IMG/VR virus record: IMGVR_UViG_3300020595_000028
Location: 1-64,000 of that record
From: a virus
Strand: one strand, 5' to 3'
Length of the DNA: 64,000 bases
This document shows, piece by piece, positions 1,965 to 58,307 of the stretch. The translations under genes and the position numbers were made by a program. The notes beneath the pieces are model-generated. The model worked only from the letters and a program-made list of their open reading frames with translations, searched no databases and was not told the DNA's origin. The stretch's first letter is position 1. Every line of letters starts with the position of its first letter.

Positions 1965-3083
1965 TTAAGCGTGGAAGATAGGCAAGATGCCCAAGTTCAA
2001 GCTGTCCATTTTACGTGTATAAGAAGCAGCAGCGCCCATAGTTGCGTTAGTAGCGAATACGTTAGTCGCACCAGCCCAGTCGTAACCCATTGGGTGGTTG
2101 ATGAAGCCCCAACGGTACCATACGTTTGTTGAACCGCCACCGAGGTAGGACGCAGCAGCACGGTCTACTTCAACTGGAGTTGGCATGTTGATTGCAGTTG
2201 CAGCAACAGAACCTGGCTTAACAATGAAGGTACACTTAGAAGAAGCAGCGTTCAAGTCGCCAGCTGTGAAGCCAGAAACCATTTGGTTCGCACGAGTCAT
2301 AACCAAGCGGAATTTGCCACCGAAGATTGTTGAGAACTCAAGGTTGCCATCAGTAACCATAGTTTCGTCAACTAGGTTAGCAGCACGCATTTCAGCCATT
2401 ACTTCTGGTGAAGTGACCATGTACATGAAGTCAGGCTCATAGTCTTTGAATGTAGCGCCGATAGATTTGAACAAACGCTCACCACGGGCAGCGCCCATAG
2501 CAGAAGAGTCGAACAATTTACGTGCGTCAGATGCGCCAGTCGCAGCAGCACCGTGTAGGCCAGCAGCGTTGATGTCGCAGAAGAAGCCAGTTGCAGCAAC
2601 ATCAGCATCTGTATCATAATCGATGATACCACCGTTACCAGAACCTGCAAGGTCACCAAGAGCAACTTCGCTCAATGCTACACCTTTAAGAACTGCCAAC
2701 AAAGCGTCGTGCTCGTCTTGTGCACGCACTTCAGCGAAGTCACGAGCGATTTTAGCTAGACCGTCTTGCTTAGAGACAACTTCTTGCATGTTTACTTGCT
2801 CTGCACCGAATGTGCGAACAGTTTTAACGTAGTTAGCAACGTCTGTTGCGATGTCTGTGTATGTACCGTCTGTAGCAGTAGACAAAGAAGCAACGTTTAC
2901 GTTTGCTGACAATGGTTTGTACCAGCGGAACTGACCGACGAAAGATTCGCCAGATGCGTCGATGCGCTGGTCAGCAGCAACGATGCCTGTGCCGTTTAGT
3001 TTCTTAGCAGAAGTGTAAGCTTCGTCTGAGTAAGCAGAGATTGCAAGAGCAATATTCTGGAAGTCTGTGTTTGTAATAGCCAT
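1965..3083 (-). CDS. Major capsid protein
   Basis: A 372-residue protein starting MAITNTDFQNIALAISAY. It follows the scaffold-like gene and precedes the connector genes. It has an N-terminal helical arm, a long helix around KQDGLAKIARDFAEVRAQDE (residues about 105-125), and Gly/Ala-rich beta segments, consistent with an HK97-fold shell protein. The segment SPEVMAEMRAANLVDETMV is the 'try to delete the sample' style spine region seen in such capsids. A good ribosome site precedes the ATG. No protease gene is adjacent. Confidence 0.8.
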   Translation of the reverse strand: MAITNTDFQNIALAISAYSDEAYTSAKKLNGTGIVAADQRIDASGESFVGQFRWYKPLSANVNVASLSTATDGTYTDIATDVANYVKTVRTFGAEQVNMQEVVSKQDGLAKIARDFAEVRAQDEHDALLAVLKGVALSEVALGDLAGSGNGGIIDYDTDADVAATGFFCDINAAGLHGAAATGASDARKLFDSSAMGAARGERLFKSIGATFKDYEPDFMYMVTSPEVMAEMRAANLVDETMVTDGNLEFSTIFGGKFRLVMTRANQMVSGFTAGDLNAASSKCTFIVKPGSVAATAINMPTPVEVDRAAASYLGGGSTNVWYRWGFINHPMGYDWAGATNVFATNATMGAAASYTRKMDSLNLGILPIFHA

Positions 3084-3119: not shown

Positions 3120-3791
3120 TTATAGGTTGAAGTTACCTAGTTTACCTTTTGCGGCAAGAGCTAGAATTTCTTGAGTTGACATTTCGCTGATAGACTTTGA
3201 AACATCGGTTGAAGGCGCTCCAGCTGGATTGCCTGTACCTGCACCAGTGTTAGACTTAACACGGAACAGGAATGAGTTATCTTCGGACTTAGCATAAGCT
3301 TCGACGTAGTCACGAATATTTGAACCTGTGGAATGCAACCATACACCCTCTTCGTTTTGAACCAACTGGTCAACAATCTCACGGCGAGCCATGTCGCGTG
3401 ATTTGTCGTTACGGAATTCCATGCCAGCGAGTGCATCATTCAATACACCGTCCCGCTTTAGCTGTGTTGTCTCTTTCGCAAAGACTTCTAGTTTAGCTTT
3501 AGCTTCGGCAAGCTCCATCTCCAGAGCCTCTTGCAATTTACCCTCTTCTTTCATGCGAGCGATAGTTGCTTCCTTTGCGGTAGCTTCCATCTCTGCTTTC
3601 ATCTTAAGAGCTTCGTCACGTTCTGAGGCCATACGGTCCATATTGGCTTTCATCTTAGCCAGTCGTTCTTCAACGATAGACTCGATGTCATCCTTTGGGG
3701 CTTCGGTTGTTTCTACTTCTTCAGCAGCAGTGTCCTCTACGGGCGCTTCTACTACTACTTCTTCGTTTACTACGTTATTTTCTTCACTCAT
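3120..3791 (-). CDS. Capsid scaffolding protein (putative)
   Basis: A 223-residue, strongly charged, largely helical protein. Residues 1-40 are very acidic (many Glu). Residues about 40-130 form a coiled-coil-like stretch of Met, Lys, Glu and Ala. The tail is Ser/Gly/Pro-rich and ends SISEMSTQEILALAAKGK. This composition and its position directly before the capsid gene fit a scaffold, which co-assembles with capsid protein and leaves before packaging. No protease motif is present, so it is not a fused protease-scaffold. Confidence 0.75.
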   Translation of the reverse strand: MSEENNVVNEEVVVEAPVEDTAAEEVETTEAPKDDIESIVEERLAKMKANMDRMASERDEALKMKAEMEATAKEATIARMKEEGKLQEALEMELAEAKAKLEVFAKETTQLKRDGVLNDALAGMEFRNDKSRDMARREIVDQLVQNEEGVWLHSTGSNIRDYVEAYAKSEDNSFLFRVKSNTGAGTGNPAGAPSTDVSKSISEMSTQEILALAAKGKLGNFNL

Positions 3792-3887: not shown

Positions 3888-6800
3888 TTATGGTCCAATA
3901 CCATACCAGTCGTTTCCGTCCCGGAATGATTCGAGCAGTTCTTTTGGAGTAATCTTGTTATCAGGGTCGATTAGACCATCTTGTCTTGCTCTTTGTAAGT
4001 ACTTATTATATGTCGCCCTTGACATACCAGACTTCCTCATAGCCTTGAGGGTCTGTTTAATCGTTCCTTGTTGTAGCGCATCTGCATAGATTTGCCGAAG
4101 GGCCGATTTAGCGTTAACCGCCTCACCAAGGTTTGTAAAGAAAGCATCATGGATTGTTCCAGTGTCTACTTTATTCTTTTTACCCCATTGGTGAAATCTT
4201 CTGACTAGCACAGCATCGTTACTGTGGTTGCCATTCACACCTAGTCCAATAGACGCATCTTGTATCGACTGTTGCGATAACAAACTACCATCCTTGCTGG
4301 GTGCTTCGTATATGTTGAAGACCTTCTCGCCCGTTACAGGGTCGGTGAAGTCTACTCTTGTCTGTTCTTTAACTCGATAACGCTGCATCATAGTTTTGCC
4401 ATCGAAAGTCACCCAAGGGATGTCTACCGAACCTGACTCTGCTACATAGTCTTTAGCAATGTCTTTCCAAAACCTAATGAACTTACCAGTCACAGGAACT
4501 TCGGCTTCAAGGTGACGCGACATAATCTTAGAAACTTTCTCAAATAACCGAGTACCTACAAGGTCTCCTGTCTCATCTGTCAGCTTCATTAAAAATGTAT
4601 GCATCTCCTCAGAGTTCTTTACACCGTCTCTAAACTCTGCTCTTGCAGTGTCATACAGTGATTCTGTAATAGTTCTACCTTCTTTAGAAGATAATACTAT
4701 GTTTCGTTTTATGTCTCGTAATTCATCAATACGAGTCCAATTCTTTCTGTCCATTTCGAAGCTAATCTTAGCATCAATCGCAGCTTTAAACTTATCAACC
4801 TCTTTAGTAGAGATAGCTACCTTGCCTTTCTTAGCCAGTGCTTTAGAGAACTGGTTGGCAACGTTAGCAGCCTTAGTAGCATCCCCCGCACCATAGAAAG
4901 CAACCATGTTCTGATTCTTAGCAGCCTTCATCAAGTCAGTCCAATCAAGGTCTAGGTCTTGAAGTTCAGGTATAGCCAGGAACTCAGGGTCGTTAACAGT
5001 ACGTTTAGCGATTTCATCGTATAGACGTTGTTTCTTAGATGTCTGTAAAACGTTAGACAACTCAGCTGACGCCCTATCACCAGTAGATAAAGAGATAATC
5101 TGCGCCCCAGAGGAACTAGCATCATTCTCAATCATCATCTTGGTTTTGTACTGTCGAAGCTTTCTAACTTCAGCAGTAGTATAGAGTGTCTTATCTAAAG
5201 GTACTTTACCTTCCATGTGTCGGTGTATACGAGTATACTCTAACGCAAGACGAGCAAGCTTGCCCACCTCAACATCCTCTGTAGCAGCTACAAGGGAGTT
5301 AGATAGGAACTCTTTGATACGTCTGTCTGGCTGAGTAGTACTCATCATCAGGTTGCCAATTTCTAGAAGGTTCTTTTCTTCAGCTTTAAAAGCATTGAGA
5401 CGACCTTTAACAGTCAGAGTGTCTAGGGGGCTACCAATCAAGGCACCAATCTGTGTCTGCAGTTCTTCTACAGCATCAGGGTTAATTGATACTGGTTTAG
5501 CTGTGTTTAAGAACGGACGGACTGCTTCACCCTTAGTAGGTGTAAGTAGTCCACGGTGATAAACACGACCACGGAAGTCAACAGAAACATCAACAGAGAA
5601 AGATTGATTACGTTGCCTATAGTACTTAGCTGTAGCTAAAACACCACGACCATCATTCCCACGAGACATGAATAGTTTCTTCATCTCGTTTACAGAGTCC
5701 CACTTAGCGGCTTCACCTCGTTTATCATTAAAGTATATAAGACGTTCTGTGAAGTCAAAGAACTCAGGGTCAACCTCATACTTAACAGAGTTAGCATGGT
5801 TCATCATCTGAGCCATACCTCTATCAATCTGATTAGGGTCGTAGTCGGCATAAACCTTTTCTGAGACTACAGGCATCTTAGTCTTACGACCACGAGCATC
5901 ATAGAACTCTTTAGAGCCAGCCCTAGCATAAACCTTATTACGATTATCTGCATAACCAAAGCGTCGAGCAATACGAGCCTTTTCCGCAGCAATCTGTAGC
6001 TGTTTCATAGGGCCGTTAATGATGCTGATTTGACGAGTAACATTAACACCACGCAGGGACTTATCACCGATAGGTCTGCCTGTGTTCAAGTCTTTAGGAG
6101 AAGAGGTTCCAATGTCACGAATGACTGTAGTTCTAATCATGCCCTGTTTCTCAAGGGAGTTGATTATTCTACTACCGTCTTTGTGGAACTCTTTGAGTCC
6201 CTTCGAGCGGAATGGGTTTAAATCACCTAGTTCTTCGTCGAACATCTGACCAATCTTAATAGCCAACATGTCATAATCAGCACCTTCAGCTGTAGCAATA
6301 GACTGCATAGCCTTGGAAGTAGCTTTAGTAACTTTGTCCTTGAGTGTTTCTTTTGCTGTCTTTCTTTTTCTAGCAAATAAAAACTCTCTATCAAGTAACT
6401 CTCGTTTAACGCCTCTATACTTGGCAATCTGTTCAGTAAACCAAGAGTCAGAAGGTGTCTTCTTTTCAAAAAGCTTTTCTAACTTACGCTTAGTCTTTAC
6501 ACCGGGGATTGCGGTAATGAGCTTTGCCTTTAGTTCTTTGGCAGAAGGATAGCGTTTAATAATAGGTTGCGTGTAAGCAGCAATAGGTGCCTTAACATTA
6601 AAATAGGCTTTGTTAGCCAGTTTAGCGCCGTAAGTCCCTTGCCAAGTCTCAATATAGCGGTTATCAGCAATCTGAGAATCAATAAGTTCAGAGATTGTGT
6701 AGCGCTTATTCAGAATAAATACTTCAGGGTCATTAGCTAACTTAGTAGTTAGGCCACCGAATAACTTACCTCTATCCGCAGAACGGTTAAACATAAGTGT

Positions 6801-8327
6801 ACCTAAGTCCTGAACAGAGTTCAAAGTAAACTTGCGGAATACAGAAGTAGGCTTGCCCCAAGGTTCACCAGAGTTATTAGAGCGTGTAAACGTTTGGCGT
6901 AACACATCAGTAACAACAGAACGCTGGTTGATAGAAACATCACGACCTAAGTCTTTAACAAATTTGTCGATGTACTTCTTTTGTTGACTTGTGAGTACAG
7001 TACTCTCAGCAACTTTAGCAAGACGCTCAGCTAGAATGTCAGGTTCTTGAATCTGAATATGACGGCCAGCACCACTAGTATAGTCAGCACCCTCTGCATT
7101 GAACACAGCACCTTCACGATTAGACTTAAATGAACGCCTACTGCCTTGCTTCTGAGACAAAGAGTTTCCTTTGAAGTCAGTCAAAGCAAGTGCCTGAGAG
7201 TTCTCAGCAGCATCGTTCTTAAAGTGCGCACGAAGGGCAGCAGTGTGAGCTTTAGAAGCCATTAACTCTTCAGGAGTAGAGAACCCTAGAGTAATGTTAC
7301 TTTCGTTATCAGCTGTAGGGCGTTTAACAGTTGTGTTAGCACGACGCATTAGACCACGAATAGACAAAGCTTTACCAGCAGGGGAAACAAACTCAGAGGC
7401 TTTTAGTTTTCCACGTTGGAAAAGAGAAGCTTGACGTTCACCACCTAGTTGTTTAATCTGTACATCTGTAGACTGACGACGTAGCCAGCTTGTGTAGTCT
7501 TTAATCTTTGAAGGTTGGCCTGTTAGTTCTGAAGGATTAATGTTCTTCAGGTTACGAGCTTTAATGTTCTTAGAGTTAACTTGTTCTAGTTCTTCTTTAC
7601 TCTTAACAACAGGCACCAAGGTAGAACGACAGTTCCAGTGTAAAGGGGGCTGATAACGCTTGTCATCAATCTTATACACTTGGCCGTTATGATGAGTACA
7701 GATTGGGCTTGTCTTACCATCTAGGATGGCAGTGAACATGTAGCCAGAAAGTACTTCAGCGTTAGCTTCCATAACTTGATTCATAGCATCTGTCTGTGTT
7801 GTAGTAATAGAGGTTCTAGTCAGTGTCCTAGCTTGGTGCTCAGTAATCTTAGTTGTCTTCAAAACATCTGCGATGATTTCATTCTGAGTTAAACCTTTAG
7901 CTAAACCGCCTTTAACTTTAGTCTGGATACGGACCAGTTCACCAGAGCCAATATTCTTCATATTGCCTTTTAGTGTGCGTGAGCCTTTAATCTGTGGTCC
8001 AGTTATTTCTGCCAATAGCTCTTTAGTCTTTGGCTTTTGTGTTCTATAGAACTTCTTAATTTCAGAATCAAGATTGTTCTTATGAAAGACCTTCTGTGAG
8101 TTGGAGAACTCTGACAAACTCTTAGAAGTATGAGCTTGGAGTTCTTTAGTGAAGCGTGTTACTTCGGGTTTCACATTGGCTCGTATATCCCCTTTCAGGA
8201 GGTCTTTTAAATTATTTCTATGCTGTTTAAGGATTGTACGGTTGCCCTTCTGGACACCATTTTCATATAGACGGACGTCGCCAGCATGGTCAACAATCCT
8301 GTCAAATATCTTTTCGTTAATAGACAT
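3888..8327 (-). CDS. MuF minor head protein fused to single-subunit RNA polymerase
   Basis: About 1,479 residues from the ATG giving MSINEKIFDRIVD, chosen because GGAGAG precedes it; an in-frame ATG lies 12 bases upstream. Residues about 140-245 look like a MuF/SPP1 gp7 minor-head domain: TLTRTSITTTQTDAMN, then LDGKTSPIC and PPLHWNCRSTLVPV with paired cysteines C210 and C233. The C-terminal third carries T7-type polymerase signatures: VDFRGRVYHRG (D917-R921), motif A NDASSSGAQ (D1069), motif B KNQNMVAFYG (K1137, Y1145), and motif C HSNDA...IHDAFF (H1393, D1394). The three metal/nucleotide residues are intact. The Arg four residues before the motif B Lys is replaced by Met-Lys. Residues 250-850 are largely unassigned. 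The gene lies directly after the portal, as MuF genes do. Inference: a virion-packaged polymerase injected to transcribe early genes, as in N4 but with a different head anchor. Confidence 0.88.
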   Translation of the reverse strand: MSINEKIFDRIVDHAGDVRLYENGVQKGNRTILKQHRNNLKDLLKGDIRANVKPEVTRFTKELQAHTSKSLSEFSNSQKVFHKNNLDSEIKKFYRTQKPKTKELLAEITGPQIKGSRTLKGNMKNIGSGELVRIQTKVKGGLAKGLTQNEIIADVLKTTKITEHQARTLTRTSITTTQTDAMNQVMEANAEVLSGYMFTAILDGKTSPICTHHNGQVYKIDDKRYQPPLHWNCRSTLVPVVKSKEELEQVNSKNIKARNLKNINPSELTGQPSKIKDYTSWLRRQSTDVQIKQLGGERQASLFQRGKLKASEFVSPAGKALSIRGLMRRANTTVKRPTADNESNITLGFSTPEELMASKAHTAALRAHFKNDAAENSQALALTDFKGNSLSQKQGSRRSFKSNREGAVFNAEGADYTSGAGRHIQIQEPDILAERLAKVAESTVLTSQQKKYIDKFVKDLGRDVSINQRSVVTDVLRQTFTRSNNSGEPWGKPTSVFRKFTLNSVQDLGTLMFNRSADRGKLFGGLTTKLANDPEVFILNKRYTISELIDSQIADNRYIETWQGTYGAKLANKAYFNVKAPIAAYTQPIIKRYPSAKELKAKLITAIPGVKTKRKLEKLFEKKTPSDSWFTEQIAKYRGVKRELLDREFLFARKRKTAKETLKDKVTKATSKAMQSIATAEGADYDMLAIKIGQMFDEELGDLNPFRSKGLKEFHKDGSRIINSLEKQGMIRTTVIRDIGTSSPKDLNTGRPIGDKSLRGVNVTRQISIINGPMKQLQIAAEKARIARRFGYADNRNKVYARAGSKEFYDARGRKTKMPVVSEKVYADYDPNQIDRGMAQMMNHANSVKYEVDPEFFDFTERLIYFNDKRGEAAKWDSVNEMKKLFMSRGNDGRGVLATAKYYRQRNQSFSVDVSVDFRGRVYHRGLLTPTKGEAVRPFLNTAKPVSINPDAVEELQTQIGALIGSPLDTLTVKGRLNAFKAEEKNLLEIGNLMMSTTQPDRRIKEFLSNSLVAATEDVEVGKLARLALEYTRIHRHMEGKVPLDKTLYTTAEVRKLRQYKTKMMIENDASSSGAQIISLSTGDRASAELSNVLQTSKKQRLYDEIAKRTVNDPEFLAIPELQDLDLDWTDLMKAAKNQNMVAFYGAGDATKAANVANQFSKALAKKGKVAISTKEVDKFKAAIDAKISFEMDRKNWTRIDELRDIKRNIVLSSKEGRTITESLYDTARAEFRDGVKNSEEMHTFLMKLTDETGDLVGTRLFEKVSKIMSRHLEAEVPVTGKFIRFWKDIAKDYVAESGSVDIPWVTFDGKTMMQRYRVKEQTRVDFTDPVTGEKVFNIYEAPSKDGSLLSQQSIQDASIGLGVNGNHSNDAVLVRRFHQWGKKNKVDTGTIHDAFFTNLGEAVNAKSALRQIYADALQQGTIKQTLKAMRKSGMSRATYNKYLQRARQDGLIDPDNKITPKELLESFRDGNDWYGIGP

Positions 8328-8366
8328 TAGTCTCTCCATTACTATACTTCGTGGATGTAGGTGGAA

Positions 8367-8391: not shown

Positions 8392-8479
8392 TTTTATTTG
8401 GTGCTAATTAGAGAATTGAACTCTTCTTCTCTGTGGTATGACGCCTGTGATACCTTTGAGACCGCGAACCTGCGTTAGC

Positions 8480-10054
8480 TTATTCTTCGTCTAACTTAAG
8501 TTCATCTTCTTTTAGCTCTGGGTTAGCAACTAAAGGGTCAGTCTGAATCGCTTGGATAGCCTCTTCATCGTCGTAGTCAGCAGGTAGGAAGTCATTGTAC
8601 TTCGCAATGTTGACAAACGTATCACGAGAAATAATACCACCTTGGTACCATTCAGATACAAGACGCATAGCACCTTCGCCACCAACAGTAGCTGCAAAGT
8701 CAGCAGAGAGTTGGAATTCGATGTCGTTACCTGTGTAGTCCGTGTCATACTTCCAGTTTATCATAAAGGCTAGAATCTCTTGCATAGTACCAGAAATCTT
8801 AGCGTTCATTGTACCTAACTGAGCAGTCTGAGAAGCGTTACGAATCTCTAGAGCAACACCTGAAGCGGCTTGTTCTGGAGACAACATGCGGATACCCATC
8901 TTGGCCATCTCTTCGACGGTAGATTGAATAGCACGGTCCATATCCGCTAAAGCCCCCGTAGGTGTTTCTAGCACAGTAATGGATTCGTCTTTGCGAACAC
9001 GGAGCCAAGTACCAAGACCTGCGCCGACTAGTTCTTCAAACTCTTCGTCAGTCATGTCAGACTGCACCACTGGTGTATAGGTGGCCGCACCGTATAGTAG
9101 GTGGTTACGACGAGACACTTTGTTGTAGAGTGATACTTCTCTGTCAATCAATGGCATAAGCACTGGCTCAACAGGCTCAAGTTGCCCATTCAAAGGGAAC
9201 GCGGGAACGCGGTCCAGACGCTGACCAAACTTCATTGGGTATACTGTGTCATACAACTGGAAGCCACCATCAGCGGAGTCTTCGTACTCTTGTTGAATAA
9301 CACCGTTAAGTGCTTCTACTTCGTGAGAGCCATGAGACTTCTTGTAGTAGTCAAGAACCAAGAAACCCTGTTCATCAAGGTAGTGGTCACAAACAGTATC
9401 TACATAGTTAGGGTGCCAAGGATTATCATCGCTGTATTCTTCGCTGATATAACGAGTAGTCCAACGGCTAAGAGTCTTAACACGAGTAACTGGGTGAGTC
9501 TTAACCTGTACGTTAATAACATTCTCTGCTTTAATCAGAACAGGATAAGGAGAAATAGTCATACGCTCTTCAGGAGTCATATTCTCTAGTTCATCGTCTG
9601 ATACTGTTGGACGGTCAATGTAGACCCAAGCACGAGAAGTTTGTAGCTCTTCCCAGATAGCAGCATCCAAGAAGTTAAACAAAGAAGCACCATCAAGAGT
9701 AATATCCTTAGTAATCCAATCATAAGCATCTTCACTAAGTTCTTCAGGGAGAGTCAAGGTTGATGGTTTACGTAGCAAAGCACTAATCAGCACACGAGCA
9801 TACTGAGTTGTTAGACCCGGAAGCTCTGCTTCTGATTTATAAAAGTCATACTGTGGTTGTGACATACTAGGAGAGAAGGGTAGTAGCAAGTTAGAGTAAT
9901 CACGCTCGATATACTCATCATGTGCTTTAGCGTGGGCTTCACCCTGCAGTACTGCGCGAGCTTTCTTCCATAATGGTTTTAGTGACAAGTACGAAGCACT
10001 GGGGGTCTCTACACCACGCTTCTGTGTATTAGCAGCTGTTTTAACTAGCGACAT
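8480..10054 (-). CDS. Portal protein (DUF4055-like)
   Basis: A 524-residue protein starting MSLVKTAANTQKRGVE with a GAGG ribosome site. Segments such as the KKARAVLQGEAHAKAH region, PGLTTQYARVLISALLRKP, the IWEELQTSRAWVYIDRP region and MLSPEQAASGVALEIRNAS match the architecture of the DUF4055 portal group: N-terminal clip helices, a long central domain and an acidic C-terminus. It begins the head operon, with the MuF-RNAP, scaffold and capsid genes following. The 265-base leader upstream carries two promoter-like elements and a terminator, so portal expression seems specially controlled. Forms the dodecameric DNA entry ring. Confidence 0.85.
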   Translation of the reverse strand: MSLVKTAANTQKRGVETPSASYLSLKPLWKKARAVLQGEAHAKAHDEYIERDYSNLLLPFSPSMSQPQYDFYKSEAELPGLTTQYARVLISALLRKPSTLTLPEELSEDAYDWITKDITLDGASLFNFLDAAIWEELQTSRAWVYIDRPTVSDDELENMTPEERMTISPYPVLIKAENVINVQVKTHPVTRVKTLSRWTTRYISEEYSDDNPWHPNYVDTVCDHYLDEQGFLVLDYYKKSHGSHEVEALNGVIQQEYEDSADGGFQLYDTVYPMKFGQRLDRVPAFPLNGQLEPVEPVLMPLIDREVSLYNKVSRRNHLLYGAATYTPVVQSDMTDEEFEELVGAGLGTWLRVRKDESITVLETPTGALADMDRAIQSTVEEMAKMGIRMLSPEQAASGVALEIRNASQTAQLGTMNAKISGTMQEILAFMINWKYDTDYTGNDIEFQLSADFAATVGGEGAMRLVSEWYQGGIISRDTFVNIAKYNDFLPADYDDEEAIQAIQTDPLVANPELKEDELKLDEE

Positions 10055-10188: not shown

Positions 10189-10207
10189 TCATTATTCCGC
10201 CCTATTT
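10189..10207 (-). promoter_or_regulatory. Family A promoter-like element (portal-proximal)
   Basis: Minus strand AAATAGGGCGGAATAATGA, followed by CCCC. It is one of five nearly identical 19-base copies in the window, all intergenic and all in the direction of transcription; this one lies about 135 bases before the portal ATG. The layout (A/T block, GC-rich block, AATAAT, then GA) resembles T7-like promoters with a specificity block, a melting region and a purine start. Probably read by one of the two phage RNA polymerases. Confidence 0.7.
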
Positions 10208-10299: not shown

Positions 10300-10318
10300 T
10301 CATTATTCCGCCCTATTT
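10300..10318 (-). promoter_or_regulatory. Family A promoter-like element (portal-distal)
   Basis: Minus strand AAATAGGGCGGAATAATGA, identical over all 19 bases to the copy about 110 bases downstream. It abuts the stop codon of the endolysin gene. Because a terminator lies between the two copies, this one may make only a short transcript or feed a regulated read-through. Confidence 0.65.
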
Positions 10319-23443: not shown

Positions 23444-26400
23444 TTAAGGTGTATCAGTAACCAAGTCACCAGTAACAAAGTTATAACCAGTCAAAGGCGC
23501 AGAGCCTTCGATATCAGCTATAGTTGTTACAGAGGACTCTATCTCATAGTAGTGTGCAGGGGCTACAGCCAATAGGCTTAAGTCCTGTGTAGCACCACTG
23601 TTATAGATAGTCGCAACGTTAGCAGTTTGGTTTGAATTCCAAATAGCCACTTGGTTAATTATACCATCGTAGTAATTGTTGTGTACGTTAGACGCTCTAC
23701 CAATACGATAGATGTTGTCGCTTGGGTTAGCACCACTTATAGCGCCATCGTAACCACTATTAGAAGCAACACCAATCTTAAACTTGTTAACACCATCAAC
23801 AAAGATATTAAACCTACCATAGTAAGCTCCAGATTGATTAGGGTCAACTCCAGTAGTTCCACCATCAAAAGTAATCATTACATGTTGCCAAGTATTGTTT
23901 ACAAAAGAGTTAGCGGCTACCAGTATGATGTTATCATAAACAGTACCGTAGTTTAGTACTAGGGTAGTTCCACCTGATTGCTTTAGAGTAATAGCTCCAC
24001 CATTGTAATCATCTCCTGCACCATAAACCATTAAGGTCTGAGTGCCTGTATTTGATGTATCTGGTTTAACCCACATAGAGATAGTCCAAGCGCTACCGTC
24101 ACCATTTGTTGCTCGTTCTAGAGCAGTCATGTTGACAGGGTTGCCTTGAAGCCAGTTGGTTGAACCATCTAAAGACAAAGACTTAGTGTTAGTGTAGGTT
24201 GGTACTGTTACGTTGATAGTCACAGTGAAGTTAGTAATACCACCGATAGCATTAGCAGCTTTACAGTTAATGACATAGGAGTCAGTTGAACCGTTATGTG
24301 CTGGTGCTGTACCAATGAACTGACCGTTTACTTGACCCAGTACTGCCCAAGCAGGAGCATCACTTTCGCCATACATGTTAACAATGTCAGAGTTAGCGTC
24401 TAGAGCAATCTGGAAGTTAAATGCCGTGTTCTCTTCAACAGTGAAAGACTGATTAGAAACATCTGGAGCAAACGTCAGGTTAGGCTGTGAGCCACCTGTA
24501 ATAGACTGCTTAGACAACACAGGAATAGAATAGTAAGCACGGTTGCCTTTAACACCAAAGAATAGGTGTAGAGGAGTAACGCCGTCGCCATCAGCTTTAC
24601 GTGTAGCAATCTTAACATTAGCGTCTTCATCATAGAGTGTGATTGTGTTGTCGGCTGTATAGCGTAAGCTAAACATACCCTGAATAACGCCAGCGCCTCC
24701 ATCTCTGTATTGGTTCAGACTTGCCGCATAGAAGTAATCAGGCGCGTTTGTATTTGCATCCCAATCAGAAACCCCAACATCAGTATCAAATAAGATAGCT
24801 TCGTTAGTTTGATATCTGAATGTGCCGTCTAACTGTTCTTCAGCTGTAGCAACACCTGTCGCGGCGGCTGTGTAGTCAGTACCAAAGAAATCACCTTGGC
24901 CTACTTCATCAAGCATAAACATAATCTTCTCACCGGGGAGAATAGAGATGTTAGACTTAAGCACTGTGTGGTCTAGGATGCCGTTGATAATACCTGCTTC
25001 AGTCCCAGCAAAATCGTGTACAATTTCCCAAAGGAAAGAAGTAGAGTCGATAATACCGTTAGGGAAGGTTGAGTTGTTGAATCCACCAAACTGTAGGTTG
25101 AACTCAGTGACACCCAAAGAGATAGTTGTCTTAGCTACGATAACTTCAGTACCACCAGACAAATCCATCAGAGTCAAATGACCATCATTGCCGAAGCGGA
25201 TAGACATAGGCGCATTGTTAGTAGCTGTATAGCCACTCGCGTGATAGGTTGTTACATCTGTGTTAGTAGAGCTTGTGAACTTACCAGTGCCGTTAGCATA
25301 GCTAAACACTGTGTTCCAGTTACCAGCGGTTGCTTGGTCTGTGTAAGAAGTCGCTACTTCAGCGCCATCCCAGATACCCAAACGAAGTTGATTACCTGTG
25401 TCCATGTTGAACTTGAACTCTTGTCCACGTTGCAGCTTCTGACCAAAGTAGTACGGACCTTGTAATCGCAACTCAGTACCACCAACTAGGGTAGTATTGA
25501 TAGCGTTTGAAGCGACAGGTTCGTTAGCGTTAGTACCGTAGGAAATGTACCACTGGTCATTAACCGCACTCATTGTAGAGCCGTTAATCATGTTAGTAGC
25601 ATCGATTGTTACTGTTGAACCATCGCTCATAGTAAGTACTAAGTCAGAACCAACAATAGCACCACTAGCAACAAAGCTGTTAGTGTCTACACCCAGAGTA
25701 CTAATATCTACTGTGTAGGAGGTAGCGTCAGCTAAACTAATAGTGAGGTTGTCCTCTGATAACAGAAAGCCAGTTACAGGATTACCCTGAGAAGCAAAGC
25801 TTAGAGTGTTAGTGAACAAGTTGTTAAGTTCTGTTACAGCAGTGTTCAATACAGAGTTTACTAAAGAACCGTTGATGCTTACAGCGGAGACTGGCAGGGA
25901 TTCAATAAGAATCTTAGCGCCATCTTTAACCATAATCTTAATCTCAGTACCATTAGCAATAGCTTGTATTGTGTTAATGTTATGAGGAATAAGCATCTGT
26001 GAACCTACCGCCAAGGACAGGTCTTTAAGCAAGATAGAAGAACCTGTAGAGTCAACACTAAAGTCCATAGCCTTATACTTAAGGTAAGGAGAGATTAGCT
26101 CTAGGTCTTTATCTTCAAACAAACGGTTGTGTACTGTTGCTTGGTAGCGTAGCAAACCAGTGTTAGGGTCTACAGTGTCACCTTGACGAACTTGGAAGAT
26201 GCCTAAGTCAGCGTCAGTAGCGTTGTCTACCTTGTGGATTTCAGCAAACAACGTAGTACCAGCACGAACATCAACAGGGTGGTCAAAGAACCACTCAATG
26301 ACGTCACCGGGGTAGATGTTAGCACCAGCAGAAGAACGAGCAGCAGCACGAGGAAGTTCCTGCATGTAAACCTGACGACCGTTAATTGTAATGCGGTACT

Positions 26401-26881
26401 CAAGACGTACTTCTGGACCAACAGCTTCAGCAGCAGTGGTAGTGATACCAAGGCCAGAGATGTTAATGCCAAAGTAGTTATTACCAGCATAACCAACAGA
26501 GGTCAGAGGGTCTGGTGCGCCACCGAGAGGCAGAGAGAACATGTCAGTATAGACACGCCCACTTGGAGGGATGAACCCTGTGCTGTCTCTGTTAGCTGTT
26601 ATAGACTGGTCTTTAAGTCCACCCCACATAGGGAAGAAGTTAATGTCACTTGATAGGTTGGTGAAGTAAATGTTCTCTGAACCAGAAGACATCTTGTGCT
26701 GTTCACCGAGGTACAGTGAGTTAAGTGTTGTTTCAATAGCTTTAGTAGAGGTAAGCCGACGAGTGTTTTCATCGTAGTTCCAGTGGGATAGGAATTCCTG
26801 TTGGTCTGTTGTTAGACCAGTACCAGTAATACCACCACCACCAGTGCTAGGAATCATATTTGAGAATACATTTTCTGACAT
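23444..26881 (-). CDS. Large tail fibre / spike with C-terminal LamG-like domain
   Basis: A 1,145-residue protein starting MSENVFSNMIPSTGGG. Residues about 800-890 resemble a cadherin/Ig-like repeat (QSFTVEENTAFNFQIALDAN). Residues about 897-1117 form a concanavalin/LamG-type carbohydrate-binding domain (AWTISMWVKPDTSNTG, WQHVMITFDGG, FNIFVDGV). Such proteins bind surface glycans. It is TAATG-coupled to the small gene upstream. Likely a side fibre with adhesion function; no depolymerase motif recognised. Confidence 0.75.
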   Translation of the reverse strand: MSENVFSNMIPSTGGGGITGTGLTTDQQEFLSHWNYDENTRRLTSTKAIETTLNSLYLGEQHKMSSGSENIYFTNLSSDINFFPMWGGLKDQSITANRDSTGFIPPSGRVYTDMFSLPLGGAPDPLTSVGYAGNNYFGINISGLGITTTAAEAVGPEVRLEYRITINGRQVYMQELPRAAARSSAGANIYPGDVIEWFFDHPVDVRAGTTLFAEIHKVDNATDADLGIFQVRQGDTVDPNTGLLRYQATVHNRLFEDKDLELISPYLKYKAMDFSVDSTGSSILLKDLSLAVGSQMLIPHNINTIQAIANGTEIKIMVKDGAKILIESLPVSAVSINGSLVNSVLNTAVTELNNLFTNTLSFASQGNPVTGFLLSEDNLTISLADATSYTVDISTLGVDTNSFVASGAIVGSDLVLTMSDGSTVTIDATNMINGSTMSAVNDQWYISYGTNANEPVASNAINTTLVGGTELRLQGPYYFGQKLQRGQEFKFNMDTGNQLRLGIWDGAEVATSYTDQATAGNWNTVFSYANGTGKFTSSTNTDVTTYHASGYTATNNAPMSIRFGNDGHLTLMDLSGGTEVIVAKTTISLGVTEFNLQFGGFNNSTFPNGIIDSTSFLWEIVHDFAGTEAGIINGILDHTVLKSNISILPGEKIMFMLDEVGQGDFFGTDYTAAATGVATAEEQLDGTFRYQTNEAILFDTDVGVSDWDANTNAPDYFYAASLNQYRDGGAGVIQGMFSLRYTADNTITLYDEDANVKIATRKADGDGVTPLHLFFGVKGNRAYYSIPVLSKQSITGGSQPNLTFAPDVSNQSFTVEENTAFNFQIALDANSDIVNMYGESDAPAWAVLGQVNGQFIGTAPAHNGSTDSYVINCKAANAIGGITNFTVTINVTVPTYTNTKSLSLDGSTNWLQGNPVNMTALERATNGDGSAWTISMWVKPDTSNTGTQTLMVYGAGDDYNGGAITLKQSGGTTLVLNYGTVYDNIILVAANSFVNNTWQHVMITFDGGTTGVDPNQSGAYYGRFNIFVDGVNKFKIGVASNSGYDGAISGANPSDNIYRIGRASNVHNNYYDGIINQVAIWNSNQTANVATIYNSGATQDLSLLAVAPAHYYEIESSVTTIADIEGSAPLTGYNFVTGDLVTDTP

Positions 26882-34225: not shown

Positions 34226-34244
34226 TCATTATTCCGCCCCATTT
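34226..34244 (-). promoter_or_regulatory. Family A promoter-like element (late unit)
   Basis: Minus strand AAATGGGGCGGAATAATGA, the third Family A copy. It sits about 20 bases beyond a terminator with an 11-base T run and about 250 bases before the first late membrane gene. The placement, directly after a stop signal and before a long same-strand operon, is what a late promoter should show. Confidence 0.75.
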
Positions 34245-34263
34245 ATTATCTCATATAATTATA

Positions 34264-34364
34264 GAAAAAAAAAAATATAGTACCTCCTCCCAACACCCCC
34301 TCAACCATCCCGTAAGTACTCGTGAGAGTACTCGCAGGACAGAAGAAGAGATGCTGGGAGGAGG
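34264..34364 (-). terminator. Strong intrinsic terminator with nested hairpin
   Basis: An outer 10-bp stem (CCTCCTCCCA at 34355-34364 with TGGGAGGAGG at 34283-34292 in minus-strand reading) encloses an inner perfect hairpin AGTACTC-TCAC-GAGTACT. An uninterrupted run of 11 T follows (A at 34265-34275 on the plus strand). It lies nine bases after the stop of the last gene of the middle unit. Confidence 0.8.
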
Positions 34365-34372
34365 CTATGGGG

Positions 34373-34801
34373 CTATTTCTTCCAGTGTGATAGACACACC
34401 AGTTCTACTTCTTCTGGGTTAGGTTTCTTAGAGACCTCTTCCCAGTATTCTTCAGCTACTACAACAACAGGGTAGTAACCTTCTTCTATAAACCCAACAT
34501 GATGAGTCTGTTCATAACGGTACATAGAGTAAGGAAGGCCACCAATAACTCTTGTTAGGTTAGCTGCCTTCTGTTCTATGGGGTCTGTTACTATGAACTC
34601 TTTAGTCATATCTTTCCAGAGATACGTGATAAGCTCACTAGTGAAGTCATCAACACCATAGATAGCGATTAGACTTAAGTCCCGATAGTCTTTCTTGAAC
34701 TGTTCTTTAGCAGTATCAGGGCGGGGCTTAAGCTTAATCTTATGGGGTTTCTTGTCGGTAGACCCTTTAGGGCGTCCCGGTTTCTTCTTCTCAGTATCCA
34801 T
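34373..34801 (-). CDS. Small protein with N-terminal AT-hook
   Basis: About 142 residues from the ATG of MDTEKKKPGRPKGSTDKKPH. The KKPGRPKGSTDKK segment is a canonical AT-hook core (GRP flanked by basic residues). The rest is alpha/beta and acidic (LIAIYGVDDFTSELITYLWK; GYYPVVVVAEEYWEEV). It resembles the AT-hook start of the small-terminase protein. Possible DNA-binding regulator of the adjacent middle/late switch; no family assigned. Last gene before the terminator. Confidence 0.6.
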   Translation of the reverse strand: MDTEKKKPGRPKGSTDKKPHKIKLKPRPDTAKEQFKKDYRDLSLIAIYGVDDFTSELITYLWKDMTKEFIVTDPIEQKAANLTRVIGGLPYSMYRYEQTHHVGFIEEGYYPVVVVAEEYWEEVSKKPNPEEVELVCLSHWKK

Positions 34802-36433: not shown

Positions 36434-37138
36434 TTATTTTCCTGTTTTAGTTTGCATTTGTACACGCTCTCGACGAACGAGTTCACGCATTTCATAGGGG
36501 TCTACTACTTCATCAATAATGTTGAAGTCAAAGGCTTCTGTGGCGTGTAGCCATACGTCAGTTGGGCCTAGTAGTTTGTCACGGATAAGAGCACGGGATA
36601 GACCTGTGCACTGTTCATAGTGGTTAACCATCCACTCAGAGGTTTGTTCGAAGGACTTCATACGACCATAAAGTTCGTGTTCCTTACCCCCTGCCCCTGC
36701 CGCGTACTGGTGCGACATGATTTGAGCGGAGGAAGAGGCCATACGGTGTTCACCAGACATCAGAGTAAGAATACCACACGAGGCTGCAAGGCCAGTAGCG
36801 AAAGTATCTACAGGGATGAGTGAGGAGAACATAGTGTCAATAAGAGTTAAGCAGCTATCAATACGACCCCCCGGAGAGTTAATCATTAGGGTGATACGTT
36901 CAGGGGCCAGCTCCTCTTCCATAGAGTTGTATTCCATAATGGCATGAACCAAGGGCATTACAGTCTCTTGCTTGAAGCTGTCTGACAACATGATGACACC
37001 TGCCTCACGCATGTAAGTGCCGGGTTGTGCCATTACTGGTGGTGTTTTAACTTCTTCTACTGTCTTAGCTGGAGCCTTTTTAACAGGCGCTTTCTTAGCT
37101 GGTGTTTTCTTAGGTGTCGCTGCGATAAAGTTAAACAT
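36434..37138 (-). CDS. ClpP-fold serine protease with basic N-terminal tail
   Basis: A 234-residue protein starting MFNFIAATPKKTPAKKAPVK. After a 35-residue Lys/Pro/Ala-rich tail, the ClpP fold is clear: LMINSPGGRIDSCLTLIDTM, the nucleophile motif GLAASCGIL (S120), AQIMSHQY (H143) and an acid in GPTDVW (D194), then NIIDEVVD. The catalytic triad is intact. It lies just downstream of an SbmA-like transporter and a secreted ClpP-fold protein, and 33 kb from the capsid gene, so a prohead protease role is unlikely. It would need an ATPase such as host ClpX/ClpA to degrade folded proteins. Confidence 0.88.
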   Translation of the reverse strand: MFNFIAATPKKTPAKKAPVKKAPAKTVEEVKTPPVMAQPGTYMREAGVIMLSDSFKQETVMPLVHAIMEYNSMEEELAPERITLMINSPGGRIDSCLTLIDTMFSSLIPVDTFATGLAASCGILTLMSGEHRMASSSAQIMSHQYAAGAGGKEHELYGRMKSFEQTSEWMVNHYEQCTGLSRALIRDKLLGPTDVWLHATEAFDFNIIDEVVDPYEMRELVRRERVQMQTKTGK

Positions 37139-45149: not shown

Positions 45150-45168
45150 TCATTATTCCGCCCCATTT
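45150..45168 (-). promoter_or_regulatory. Family A promoter-like element (exonuclease unit)
   Basis: Minus strand AAATGGGGCGGAATAATGA then CCAAGG. It lies between the mazG-like stop and the exonuclease start, only about 32 bases before the ATG. That gives a very short leader if transcription starts at the terminal GA. Confidence 0.75.
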
Positions 45169-52373: not shown

Positions 52374-53045
52374 TTATCCTCCTTTGACAGTGTTAACTAA
52401 CCTCGTTGCATACCATTCAATTTTCTTAGCGTCTTGTTCCATCGCATCTTTCTTACCGACACGAAGGGTGTACTTAAGTATCTGACCTACAAGGTGTGCC
52501 TCTACGCCACTTAGGTGAGCAAGAGCCTTGTCACAAAGGTCCATATATTCGATACCGTTAGGGTAGGCAGAGTAGTCTTCTTTGGAGAAGAGCTTGTAGT
52601 GTTTAGGGTTGATGATGGCCTCTTGTAGTGCTGCCTCCATATCAGAGAAGTCACCGTGGAAGTCTGGCTTGTCGTCCGCTTCTTTGTAGCTTCTTGTCAT
52701 AAAGTCTCCGTGGCTTTCCTGTGGTTCTACAACTTCCATGCCATCTGCTTCTTGTGCAATACGTCCGAGAATACGGTTCTTAAACATTTCTTCTTCCTCA
52801 TCTGCTTCTTGCTGTTCGTTATATCGTAGGTTCATAAGATGTTCTGACCAACGCTGTATACCTTCAATATCGGTAATGTAGCGTAAAGCGCCAATATCGT
52901 TGTCTATTACTACAATTTCAACAAAGCCTAGTGACTTTCCATGATGAAACAAGTCGATAGCTTCTTGCCAGTTAGTAGTGTCGGAGGCGCATAGCCATTG
53001 GCTATAATCATCAAATACGGTGATTGTGTATTTGTAAGTTTCCAT
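52374..53045 (-). CDS. DUF3310 (SaV-like) protein
   Basis: A 223-residue protein starting METYKYTITVFDDYSQWLCA. Residues 1-70 form an alpha/beta domain; residues about 145-220 carry the DUF3310 pattern NPKHYKLF...IEYMDLCDKA...LVGQILKYTLRVGKKDAMEQ...KIEWYATRL. DUF3310 includes the C-terminal part of T7 gp1.7 nucleotide kinase. The N-terminal domain is unusual and may bind nucleotide or regulate it. It lies with the nucleotide-metabolism gene at 53420. Confidence 0.75.
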   Translation of the reverse strand: METYKYTITVFDDYSQWLCASDTTNWQEAIDLFHHGKSLGFVEIVVIDNDIGALRYITDIEGIQRWSEHLMNLRYNEQQEADEEEEMFKNRILGRIAQEADGMEVVEPQESHGDFMTRSYKEADDKPDFHGDFSDMEAALQEAIINPKHYKLFSKEDYSAYPNGIEYMDLCDKALAHLSGVEAHLVGQILKYTLRVGKKDAMEQDAKKIEWYATRLVNTVKGG

Positions 53046-53419: not shown

Positions 53420-53860
53420 TTATAGTGAATAGTCAATTGCAGCATCAATAGCTGCCTGCAAAGAGTCGTGCACTTCTGTTGCCATAGCCGTCATAAACGG
53501 ATTTAGCTTGTCATCGGGGTTTTTGAACATGATGATGATTTTGTTCTTCATATGTGAGAACATAACCTCCGCTGCTGTTCCTTGCGCCTTGGCGTTAGGG
53601 TGGTCACGCATGTCCGTCAACAACACCTCACAACGAGCAATGTCACGAAGGTCTTGTCGGAAGATGCGGTTAGCGATGTTGTCTGACAACCCTTTGTCAT
53701 CTAGGCATTGTTCGTGGAAGCTAATCCGACGTGTAGGGTCTAGTACTGGGACATCAGCAGCCGCGATTTGTTCGTGAGCAATGTCTCTCCAGCCTTTCAT
53801 CTCATTTGCAGAGAAGCCAGCCATCGGGCCTGCTAGATATACGCCTTTAAGTAGTTTCAT
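53420..53860 (-). CDS. Nucleoside 2-deoxyribosyltransferase-like protein
   Basis: A 146-residue protein starting MKLLKGVYLAGPMAGFSANE. The YLAGPM motif and the RQDLRDIARCEVLLTDM region match the N-deoxyribosyltransferase / DUF4406 fold, with DHPNAKAQGTAAEVMFSHMK holding the candidate catalytic Glu. It would exchange or hydrolyse bases of deoxynucleosides, helping salvage or modified-nucleotide control. Overlaps the HNH gene upstream as ATGA. Confidence 0.8.
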   Translation of the reverse strand: MKLLKGVYLAGPMAGFSANEMKGWRDIAHEQIAAADVPVLDPTRRISFHEQCLDDKGLSDNIANRIFRQDLRDIARCEVLLTDMRDHPNAKAQGTAAEVMFSHMKNKIIIMFKNPDDKLNPFMTAMATEVHDSLQAAIDAAIDYSL

Positions 53861-55771: not shown

Positions 55772-55790
55772 TCATTATTCCGCCCTATTT
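55772..55790 (-). promoter_or_regulatory. Family A promoter-like element (ssb)
   Basis: Minus strand AAATAGGGCGGAATAATGA then CTAATACTGG. It lies between the downstream end of the RNA polymerase region and the SSB start, about 62 bases before the ATG. It is the first Family A copy reached after the polymerase gene. Confidence 0.75.
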
Positions 55791-55801: not shown

Positions 55802-56029
55802 TTAATCGACGAAAGTCCACTCGCCGTAGTCTTCCATGTGTAGTTCTGCGTAGAACTCATCGTCAGTCATAGGGTGAACCATGACCTTAATTACCTCTAC
55901 CATAGGTACACCTGCTTCATCGCCATATTCGATGCCGATAATCTTTACAGTGTCGATAGTATCACCAAAGGCTACATTGCGGTATGACTTAGGCAAAGGC
56001 GAAGTCGGATTGGATGATTTCTGAGACAT
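55802..56029 (-). CDS. Small protein overlapping the RNA polymerase end
   Basis: About 75 residues from the ATG of MSQKSSNPTSPLPKSYRNVA; overlaps the polymerase stop by 41 bases. Beta-rich centre (DTIDTVKIIGIEYGDEAGVP) and an acidic end (MEDYGEWTFVD). It has a good ribosome site. Possibly a polymerase accessory, inferred only from the overlap. Confidence 0.5.
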   Translation of the reverse strand: MSQKSSNPTSPLPKSYRNVAFGDTIDTVKIIGIEYGDEAGVPMVEVIKVMVHPMTDDEFYAELHMEDYGEWTFVD

Positions 56030-58232
56030 CAAGATTTCCTTTTTCTGGGATTAAGTGTGCGGATTGCATCTGTTCAAAGATGTGTTCCAAGGGGTTTTTG
56101 TCGTATAGCTCTACAAAGTGCCTACGCACATCATAGAACGCTTGTTCCATGTTACCAGCGTGACAACCGAAAGAGTCATGCACAACAGTAACAGGATAGT
56201 CTGTATCGTGGATAAACATAGACAAGTGTACTGCATCTAAGCTATGAACGATATTAGGTGGTGCTGACTGTGTTTGTTTGTCTTTATTAAGTGTAGCATT
56301 TTCCCACAGAGTAAACTCTAGCTCCATGCGTACACCATTGTGTTTTAGCTTAACAGTCTTATTAACACCCTTGCGATAGGCATGAACAAAAGGTAAACCC
56401 GTGATTATCTGGCGGAATGCGATAGGCTTGCCTGTAAAGACCTCGCCATCTTCGTCGTGCCACTCACGGTTATTCTCGTGTTCACCTAGAGCCTCAAACA
56501 TACGCAGCATCTTAGCTGGACCTTCAAGCTCTCTATAGCAAGTCTCGTAAATCATGTCGCCAAGATAGGCAGACCACGACTTGTGCTTATCTCGTAAGTA
56601 GGTTGAGATGTCGCGTGTATCATCGTGTACTTGTTCTACCATACCGTATTTAACGGCACCGTAGCCTAGTGTCATAACGGGGCGCTTAACAGTCTTGCGC
56701 CATGTCTTAGGGTTCTTAATGTTGTACCAGTAGAGTGGTGCAAACTTCTTTAGAGCGTCTCGTTTAGCATTACCGAAAGCACTACGCCTTTGGATGGCCT
56801 GAGAGAACAACTCTGAACGAGAATTAACAGAGTGTTTATTTACCGATTGTTCCAATGCTACGAAGTCATCATATAGTTCTTTAAATGCTTCGGCATTGCC
56901 CTCTTCTTCAAGAAGCTTTTCTGCATCAACGTTGACTTGCCCAATTACTTTGTCTGCAATAAACATGTATACATCACCTGGAAGGTCTTGTGGGACTAAG
57001 TTAACCAGTGGTGCTACAAGCTCATCTTTAGACATGGCGACTAGGTGTTGGACGCCGTTGTTAGAACCGTCAATGTAGATAGGTAGGCATGATGGGAAGT
57101 CTTCTGTGTTGTTACCTTCTCCAACCCAATCCTGTAGTAGTTTTAGTTCGTTGCAACATGCAAGGAAACAGAAAGGTTTGTCTGCATCCATCCAGTCGTC
57201 ATTAACAATAGGGTCATTGACATAACTTATAATCTTGTCAAAGTTATCTTGAACCCAAGTAGCACGGTCATCAAGCGAGACTTTGTCGTTGCCCCACATA
57301 TTAGCCGTGTGTACTGATAGCCAGTAGTAACCGTTGTCTCCTAGAGGTATGGGCGCGTCGAGCAGTAGAAGCCCTTTGGCGTTGTCTGAGGATTGTTCAT
57401 GTAGAAACGCAGTGTTAGGGTATATGCGACCACGAAAGTCAACATTATACAGATGATAGAAAGCATTATTCAAGTTCCTTTCTGCTAACTTTTCGATAGC
57501 TCTTGCTTCGATTTCTAGTGATGCACGTTTGGTAGGGTCTACTTCTTTCTTAAACTTAAAGGGTGTTTTCTTAGAAGTTAAGAAAGTACATTGTTTAAAT
57601 ACATCAAACACAAAGGGGTTAATGCTCCAACCTGTCTTGTTTAGTTTGTTCAAGGTTTCAATTAAGTACTCAGTACCCCCTTCTTTACAAGCAGCAATAG
57701 CATCTTCGTGGGGGGCTTTTTTAATAAGGGTGTATCCGCTCTCATGGTAGTATTTCCCAACAACCCAATCAGCAGGAGCTACGGGTGCAGGGAACATTTC
57801 GGTGCTGTCGTCCTCAATAGACTCCATCACGTTGTTTAAGGCTTCAGCATCTTCAACTCGAACATGGTAGGACGAGTGCTTGCTTAGTTTTCCGTTCTTC
57901 TTCTTCTTACGCTTCTTAACGATTGATACTATGTTGGTGTCGATGTAGGCTAAGAATATAAACCAACCGAGGTGGATTGCGTCTAATTCGTTAAACCTTA
58001 GTTTGTACTTTCTATTTATACTATTACCAACCGACGATAGAATGTTTGTTAATTCAGACATAACTTCGATTTTAGTAAGGATGTGTCCGTAGGTAAAACT
58101 TATCATCTCTTGGGGGTCTTTGTCGAACAAAGGCCAAGGGGTGTTACGCTTGTCAGGCTTCTCACCCTTTAAGTCCAGTAGATAACCTTGTCGTTCTTTA
58201 ATGTTATCACAGAGGGTTCCCATCGCGTTCAT
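55989..58232 (-). CDS. T7-like single-subunit RNA polymerase
   Basis: A 747-residue protein starting MNAMGTLCDNIKERQGYLLD. All T7-family signatures are present: VDFRGRIYPN (D265-R269), motif A IYIDGSNNGVQH (D388), motif B WRKTVKRPVMTLGYG (R512, K516, Y524 in the T7 spacing), motif C VVHDSFGCH (D686), and a C-terminal DFAFA end as in T7. It is shorter than T7 RNAP (883) at the N-terminus. It is in the early region and is the likely reader of the Family A elements. Independent of the MuF-linked polymerase. Confidence 0.96.
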   Translation of the reverse strand: MNAMGTLCDNIKERQGYLLDLKGEKPDKRNTPWPLFDKDPQEMISFTYGHILTKIEVMSELTNILSSVGNSINRKYKLRFNELDAIHLGWFIFLAYIDTNIVSIVKKRKKKKNGKLSKHSSYHVRVEDAEALNNVMESIEDDSTEMFPAPVAPADWVVGKYYHESGYTLIKKAPHEDAIAACKEGGTEYLIETLNKLNKTGWSINPFVFDVFKQCTFLTSKKTPFKFKKEVDPTKRASLEIEARAIEKLAERNLNNAFYHLYNVDFRGRIYPNTAFLHEQSSDNAKGLLLLDAPIPLGDNGYYWLSVHTANMWGNDKVSLDDRATWVQDNFDKIISYVNDPIVNDDWMDADKPFCFLACCNELKLLQDWVGEGNNTEDFPSCLPIYIDGSNNGVQHLVAMSKDELVAPLVNLVPQDLPGDVYMFIADKVIGQVNVDAEKLLEEEGNAEAFKELYDDFVALEQSVNKHSVNSRSELFSQAIQRRSAFGNAKRDALKKFAPLYWYNIKNPKTWRKTVKRPVMTLGYGAVKYGMVEQVHDDTRDISTYLRDKHKSWSAYLGDMIYETCYRELEGPAKMLRMFEALGEHENNREWHDEDGEVFTGKPIAFRQIITGLPFVHAYRKGVNKTVKLKHNGVRMELEFTLWENATLNKDKQTQSAPPNIVHSLDAVHLSMFIHDTDYPVTVVHDSFGCHAGNMEQAFYDVRRHFVELYDKNPLEHIFEQMQSAHLIPEKGNLDVSEIIQSDFAFA

Positions 58233-58307
58233 TAGCTATTCCTTCTAGGGGGGTGTGGACATGGTGCCAAAGAGACACTCCACAGGTTAAGGAGTCTATA
58301 ACTATAT

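Follow-up and report, generated by a model that had tools for sequence, protein, structure and literature searches.

Why would a phage carry a head protein and an RNA polymerase in one polypeptide? The question is raised by a 64,000-nucleotide stretch of virus DNA (IMG/VR record IMGVR_UViG_3300020595_000028, positions 1 to 64,000; hereafter the window), in which a single long gene encodes a MuF head domain followed by a polymerase resembling that of phage T7. A first-pass annotation, made from the letters alone, had proposed the gene as a simple route for packaging a polymerase and injecting it with the DNA. Our analyses indicate that the gene almost certainly encodes a catalytically intact single-subunit RNA polymerase (RNAP) fused to MuF, and the fusion is a trait of a family of marine long-tailed phages. 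Going by the MuF domain and the position of the gene, the protein is very likely packaged in the head. It is reasonably probable, with less assurance, that it is an injected virion RNAP that transcribes early genes. These three gradings are matters of judgement and were not computed.

Anatomy of the MuF-polymerase fusion

The reading frame, annotated at about 1,479 residues, is real, lies on the minus strand and comprises 1,483 codons from its first ATG (Table 1). The shorter length corresponds to a start at M5 (MSINEKIF), and several relatives likewise begin at MSIN. Pfam places Phage_Mu_F at residues 138-241 (E 1.2e-15), where the annotation had put it (about 140-245), and RNA_pol at residues 1056-1443 (E 5.8e-7), both above the curated cut-offs. 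PHROGs assigns residues 5-367 to head morphogenesis (phrog_241, E 9.8e-54) and the C-terminal part to RNA polymerase (phrog_414, E 1.1e-24). The gene directly follows that of the portal, as first annotated.

Kin of the fusion protein are encoded by 526 candidate stretches in IMG/VR, of which the best 80 were analyzed; residue conservation was read from an alignment of 43 rows with identity down to about 43%. The frame is uninterrupted in 42 loci on other IMG/VR contigs (43-94% identity), and all 42 share the C-terminus YGIGP. Because the frame is open and ends identically in these loci, the fusion is not an assembly artefact, and a frameshift or misassembly joining two genes, an outcome against which the annotation had asked for a check, is ruled out by 42 independent open frames. 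The ratio of nonsynonymous to synonymous substitution (dN/dS) is 0.02-0.16 in the MuF part, the middle, the N-terminal RNAP domain and the catalytic core for every informative, computable pair (one pair was too close to inform and one was saturated). The fusion protein is under purifying selection in all four regions.

The head half has the features of a MuF protein: a PF04233 domain, the C-x-n-H-W/F-N-C pattern and a gene adjoining the portal. Residues C214, H234 and C237 are conserved in all 41 rows that cover them, the two cysteines being the C210 and C233 of the earlier numbering. A model of residues 1-640 (predicted local distance difference test, pLDDT, 78) resembles phage head-morphogenesis and minor capsid proteins in BFVD; against the PDB it matched generic helical bundles only and no MuF protein, a comparison that is uninformative either way.

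The polymerase half was modeled over residues 400-1483 with template-free AlphaFold2 from 35 sequences (pLDDT 78; predicted template modeling score 0.72). The predicted structure has a right-hand fold of the T7 type, with an N-terminal domain, a specificity hairpin, and a palm bearing both metal aspartates, and so passes the structural check that the annotation had set. T7 RNAP is its top Foldseek match (E 1.1e-18), and VIA-align superimposes 534 residues on T7 RNAP (1s76) at 3.6 A with Z 25.8, spanning T7 residues 39-882; the same Z is reported with yeast mitochondrial RNAP, as against 15.7 for N4 RNAPII and 15.1 for the N4 mini-vRNAP. A family profile used with hmmsearch likewise retrieves T7 RNAP from the PDB, in an alignment that takes in DxxGR, motif A, the PWVT-specificity region and motif C. 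A single-sequence search of the PDB gave no match, and the family profile, compared by hhalign with single T7, N4 vRNAP and RNAP2 sequences, gave no result (RNAP2 being the free polymerase described below).

According to the model, the polymerase part comprises about 935 residues (about 547-1483), its own N-terminal domain included. Because the alignment with T7 starts near residue 547, the middle left without a match narrows to about 341-546, for which no family match was found. The first-pass annotation had left some 600 middle residues unassigned and suggested that they might hold further injected activities. Most of these residues belong to the predicted RNAP N-terminal domain (about 547-915), and since only about 200 lack an assignment, nothing supports such activities.

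The annotation had also called the polymerase complete, with the DxxGR motif and motifs A, B and C intact, and both descriptions hold. Alignment with T7, Autographiviridae and RNAP2 identifies DxxGR, the motif A aspartate, the motif B lysine and tyrosine, the motif C His-Asp pair and HSxD. Eleven residues (D921, R923, G924, R925, D1073, K1141, Y1149, G1150, H1372, H1397 and D1398) are invariant in 43/43 rows.

Further evidence comes from introns. Homing introns tend to favor codons that tolerate no change. Group I introns interrupt the fusion gene at the motif B codon in loci L029 and L057 and at motif C in L051, all 3/3 passing the Rfam gathering score. The same break, at the motif B codon, is seen in the fusion gene of EBPR siphovirus 1; there the group I match is weaker (E 1.2e-8), and an HNH gene accompanies it. 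Intron sites in the codons of motifs B and C fit an active polymerase.

Relatives and comparison with known virion polymerases

DSS3_VP1 and DSS3_PM1 match the fusion protein over its full length at 45% identity, and share its gene order and a second RNAP. DSS3_VP1 is the type of Noahvirus arc (Naomviridae), and the window is collinear with it within blocks that cover the structural genes, RNAP2, DNA polymerase, helicase and terminase. We place the window phage with the Naomviridae on these collinear core genes rather than on formal criteria of the International Committee on Taxonomy of Viruses. The DSS3 fusions were deposited as 'head morphogenesis' and 'minor head protein-like protein', not as polymerases. 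EBPR siphovirus 1 encodes the same fusion in gp47/gp49, with about 34% identity in the polymerase; its gene is intron-split, and it is annotated as a head protein plus a hypothetical protein.

The annotation knew of no described siphophage with such a head-anchored polymerase. No description of a MuF protein fused to a single-subunit RNAP was found in the open-access literature, a scope outside which the original DSS3_VP1 description lies. The window phage is nevertheless not alone, since DSS3_VP1, DSS3_PM1 and EBPR siphovirus 1 carry the fusion. A siphophage with a virion RNAP on a structural protein was also already known in P23-45, where the partner is the tape measure protein (PMC10770324).

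P23-45 provides the closest concept. In this siphophage, a structural protein carries the virion RNAP as a fusion, a non-virion RNAP follows it, and some relatives lack the fused RNAP (PMC10770324). Its gp96 differs in being a two-barrel RNAP akin to cellular enzymes and in sitting on the tail tape measure protein (PMC10770324), whereas the window fusion places a T7-type single-subunit RNAP on a MuF head protein and the tape measure gene (63152-67840) is separate.

Phage N4 follows the same logic of a virion RNAP first and a second RNAP later (PMC4496689). In its gp50 (Schitoviridae) too, a large protein of structural type contains a single-subunit RNAP, and a second single-subunit RNAP serves later genes. 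The N4 virion enzyme differs in its length (3,500 aa), its other flanking domains and its lack of MuF, and where the fusion has DxxGR and HD, the N4 enzyme shows TxxGR (or SxxGR) and [FW]DG. In a tree of catalytic cores, the fusion clade (100/100), the N4 virion clade (100/100) and RNAP2 (99/97) are all separate; N4 RNAPII, whose branch is very long, adjoins the fusion clade, and with weak deeper nodes and long branches the exact position of the fusion clade is unsure. Descent from the N4 virion polymerase is unsupported by motifs, fold score or tree, and the best reading is that the virion polymerase was recruited independently of N4's.

Another likeness is offered by the MuF-effector fusions among polyvalent proteins, in which MuF is linked to an enzyme presumed to reach the host (PMC5512222). 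In the passages of that survey that were consulted, RNAP modules appear only as the N4-like vRNAPs of N4-like phages, and no MuF-RNAP is mentioned (PMC5512222). The fusion has the marks of a polyvalent protein, with a virion structural and an enzymatic domain in one chain and a late-gene context.

The Pelagibacter phages Kolga and Aegir have a related MuF N-terminus and a related RNAP2. In Kolga, the MuF protein gp59 (633 aa; L109:20001-21902) differs in lacking a polymerase and carries a HEFAHH zinc-protease-like motif in its C-terminal part. Kolga's combination of related parts with a polymerase-free MuF protein implies that the fusion was gained or lost within the wider group. No prophage relatives were found in one scan of genome contigs, made with two peptide patterns only.

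Thymidine is reported to be replaced by deoxyuridine (dU) in DSS3_VP1 and DSS3_PM1, the DNA of DSS3_VP1 being dU-DNA (PMC12697855). We considered whether the fusion is tied to dU-DNA and rejected the idea: homologues of the DSS3_VP1 dCTP deaminase and dTMP phosphatase were not found in the window genome, and dU therefore seems not to be required for the fusion.

A second polymerase and its promoters

Exactly two RNA_pol matches occur in the genome, the fusion and the free T7-like RNAP2. DSS3_VP1 also has two single-subunit RNAPs, and both genes are matched on the same IMG/VR contigs. Which polymerase reads which promoters can be approached through an 18-base sequence, AATRGGGCGGAATAATGA, that occurs five times in the window against 0.12 expected, always in sense with the genes. 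A pair of copies lies ahead of the portal-MuF operon, about 110 bases apart. The position of this pair is kept in relatives and its eight-base core differs between close relatives, the core types being GGGCGGAA, CCCGCAAA, GGGWCCCC, CTCCCGAA and CTTGACCC.

On contigs that bear RNAP2, the promoter type was read from the copy just downstream of that gene. Among related marine phages (L117-L150), the specificity loop of RNAP2 and the promoter core switch jointly across at least five types. Loop identity is 83% within a type and 42% between types, as against 79% and 60% for the remainder of the protein, and the loop is less alike than the remainder in 61/63 between-type pairs, in a comparison that ignores RNAP2 phylogeny and includes several loci from the same samples. 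The equivalent loop of the fusion polymerase behaves differently, with 81% identity between types versus 75% elsewhere. One locus (L003), on a contig without its own RNAP2, encodes a protein 94% identical to the window fusion and has three loop changes, yet its promoter is of the CCCGCAAA type. Since the RNAP2 loop tracks the promoter type beside its gene, RNAP2 probably transcribes the late operon; since the fusion loop does not, the fusion enzyme is unlikely to be the late polymerase. Read most simply, these comparisons assign the promoters to RNAP2 and not to the fusion polymerase, which probably recognizes something other than RNAP2-type promoters.

A strong hairpin followed by a T-run stands ahead of RNAP2 (58386-58437) and about 2.2 kb ahead of terL (about 34275-34400), where an RNAP2-type promoter comes next. 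Hairpin and T-run occur at both places in the window and in DSS3_VP1 (L063 about 2190-2230 and 42409). We do not claim them as promoters of the virion polymerase, as they could equally be strong terminators.

The RNAP2 leader itself contains a conserved RNA stem-loop over the ribosome-binding site (58230-58298; L118:4935-5003 and 13 further loci), in which TCCTT pairs with AAGGA and the inner stems are GTGGA/TCCAC and GTGC/GCAC. Changes on both sides are seen in 9/14 pairs across 14 sequences, and the element has no Rfam match. It is probably a translation switch for RNAP2. In many relatives, as in the window (58308-58370; MMTVFFVIVCALGISGKLED), a tiny hydrophobic frame precedes the leader.

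Nearer the fusion, the gene that separates it from the major capsid gene has no Pfam match and may, on its position and composition, be scaffold-like. The gap between portal and fusion (about 8399-8479) holds what looks by eye like a tRNA remnant, ending TTAGCACCA; ARAGORN and Rfam searches of the window gave no tRNA match, and relatives have 1-4 tRNA genes at this gap. Elsewhere, the gene at 37149-38114 matches the SbmA/BacA peptide transporter family very strongly (PF05992, E 2e-125) and adjoins a ClpP-like protease gene, and a nucleoside deoxyribosyltransferase-like gene (PF05014, E 9.2e-8) lies beside a DUF3310 gene (53420-53860 and 52374-53045).

Table 1. Coordinates of the fusion gene, its parts, and associated genes, promoters and introns (window positions unless a locus is given).
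Feature	Position	Strand	Remarks
MuF-RNAP fusion gene	3888..8339	minus	1,483 aa from ATG 8339; 1,479 aa from M5 (8327)
N-terminal helices and MuF region, residues 1-340	7320..8339	minus	Pfam MuF part at 7617-7928
Linker region, residues 341-546	6702..7319	minus	mostly helical
RNAP N-terminal domain, residues about 547-915	5595..6701	minus	model aligned with T7 RNAP (from T7 about 35)
RNAP catalytic core, residues 916-1483	3891..5594	minus	
DxxGR motif (DFRGR, 921-925; T7 421-425)	5565..5579	minus	
Motif A (NDASSSG; D1073 = T7 D537)	5106..5126	minus	
Motif B (KNQNMVAFYG; K1141 = T7 K631, Y1149 = T7 Y639)	4890..4919	minus	intron site in relatives
T7 specificity hairpin equivalent, residues 1313-1362	4254..4403	minus	well conserved across promoter types
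Motif C (TIHDAFF; H1397 D1398 = T7 H811 D812)	4137..4157	minus	
Portal protein gene	8480..10054	minus	directly upstream of fusion; phrog_145, E 6.8e-52
Gene between fusion and major capsid gene	3120..3791	minus	homologue of DSS3_VP1 25711-26457
Major capsid protein gene	1965..3083	minus	two genes downstream of fusion; phrog_247, E 6e-25
RNAP2, free T7-like single-subunit RNAP	55989..58232	minus	747 aa; PF00940, E 6.1e-79; phrog_414, E 3.2e-123
Promoter pair AATAGGGCGGAATAATGA	10189-10206 and 10300-10317	minus	ahead of portal-MuF operon
Promoter copy AATGGGGCGGAATAATGA	34226..34243	minus	
Promoter copy	45150..45167	minus	ahead of 5'-3' exonuclease gene
Promoter copy	55772..55789	minus	just downstream of RNAP2; equivalents beside RNAP2 in relatives
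Group I introns with HNH endonuclease frames, motif B/C codons	L029:11428-11718, L057:11494-11848, L051:1695-1979, L062:23185-23411		

A proposed role for the fusion protein

We propose that the MuF part would take its place in the head, at the portal or close to it, and so bring a complete T7-type single-subunit RNAP into the particle. When the phage infects, the fusion protein would enter the cell with the DNA and start transcription of early genes, the RNAP2 gene among them. RNAP2 would then use its own promoters to transcribe late genes, such as those of the portal-MuF-RNAP operon, and late transcription of this operon would load new virions with polymerase. Ejection, early transcription and the promoter read by the fusion enzyme are less certain parts of this scheme than head incorporation. 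More tentatively still, and short of an even chance in our estimation, this may be a second independent origin of a single-subunit virion RNAP, in which a T7-type enzyme was captured by MuF, late RNAP2 and its promoters switch fast, and recognition by the virion enzyme stays fixed, possibly on the hairpin and T-run ahead of RNAP2.

Several observations weigh against this proposal. A protein of about 1,480 residues must pass a long tail, which probably requires unfolding. The arginine at T7 R627 is missing, the corresponding position 1137 being M, A or V in the 43 rows (Naomviridae-type). The next residue, K1138, is lysine in 42/43 rows, and EBPR siphovirus 1 keeps the arginine and has DxxAR in place of DxxGR. 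The changed R627 position and the near-invariant lysine beside it make polymerase activity likely yet uncertain; in our reading, the enzyme is probably tuned but active. The fusion enzyme has no confidently identified promoter, and sigma-70-like promoter sequences occur at chance level only, so that use of the host RNAP is neither shown nor excluded. The limits of the loop comparison given above, its neglect of RNAP2 phylogeny and its several loci from shared samples, belong here too.

Alternative roles were weighed against the same evidence. An unlikely one, and the best surviving, is that the polymerase half is cleaved from MuF during head maturation and enters the cell free while MuF stays in the particle. 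The linker of about 200 residues between the halves, among the less conserved parts of the protein, would suit this, as would the ClpP-like protease gene (36434-37138), though it lies far from the head genes and is not linked to the fusion operon. No cleavage site was identified, however, and the linker is still under purifying selection.

Slightly less likely again, the polymerase might act late in the producing cell at the portal or prohead, for example by coupling transcription to assembly or packaging, and be packaged as a passenger only. The gene does lie in the head operon behind late-type promoters, and MuF proteins function in head assembly (PMC5512222). Yet free RNAP2 already matches the late promoters, and assembly needs no promoter-reading parts, whereas the specificity hairpin ranks with the better conserved regions. 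Very improbable is a catalytically dead polymerase half serving as DNA-binding or head-filling mass, which the missing R627 equivalent in Naomviridae-type proteins and the DxxAR of EBPR siphovirus 1 would fit but which is opposed by the metal aspartates, K1141, Y1149, H1372, H1397 and DxxGR being invariant in 43 rows and by the group I introns in motif B and C codons.

Both T7 RNAP and human RNA polymerase II are inhibited by dU (PMC6486633). A phage-encoded polymerase may help dU-DNA members in the face of such inhibition; this is speculation, and the window phage seems to be without the dU enzymes.

DSS3_VP1 and DSS3_PM1 have a laboratory host, Ruegeria pomeroyi DSS-3; with a cultured host-phage pair in hand, packaging, rifampicin resistance and promoters are testable now. 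The promoter types of RNAP2, each with its matching loop, offer a natural set of pairs for orthogonal transcription.

Virion RNAPs allow infection to start without the host RNA polymerase. Those known are either giant, as in N4, or multisubunit, or else two-barrel enzymes fused to the tail tape, as in P23-45. The joining of a head protein to a compact T7-type enzyme, which databases label merely 'head morphogenesis', would be a simple and, with 526 related IMG/VR stretches, widespread solution.

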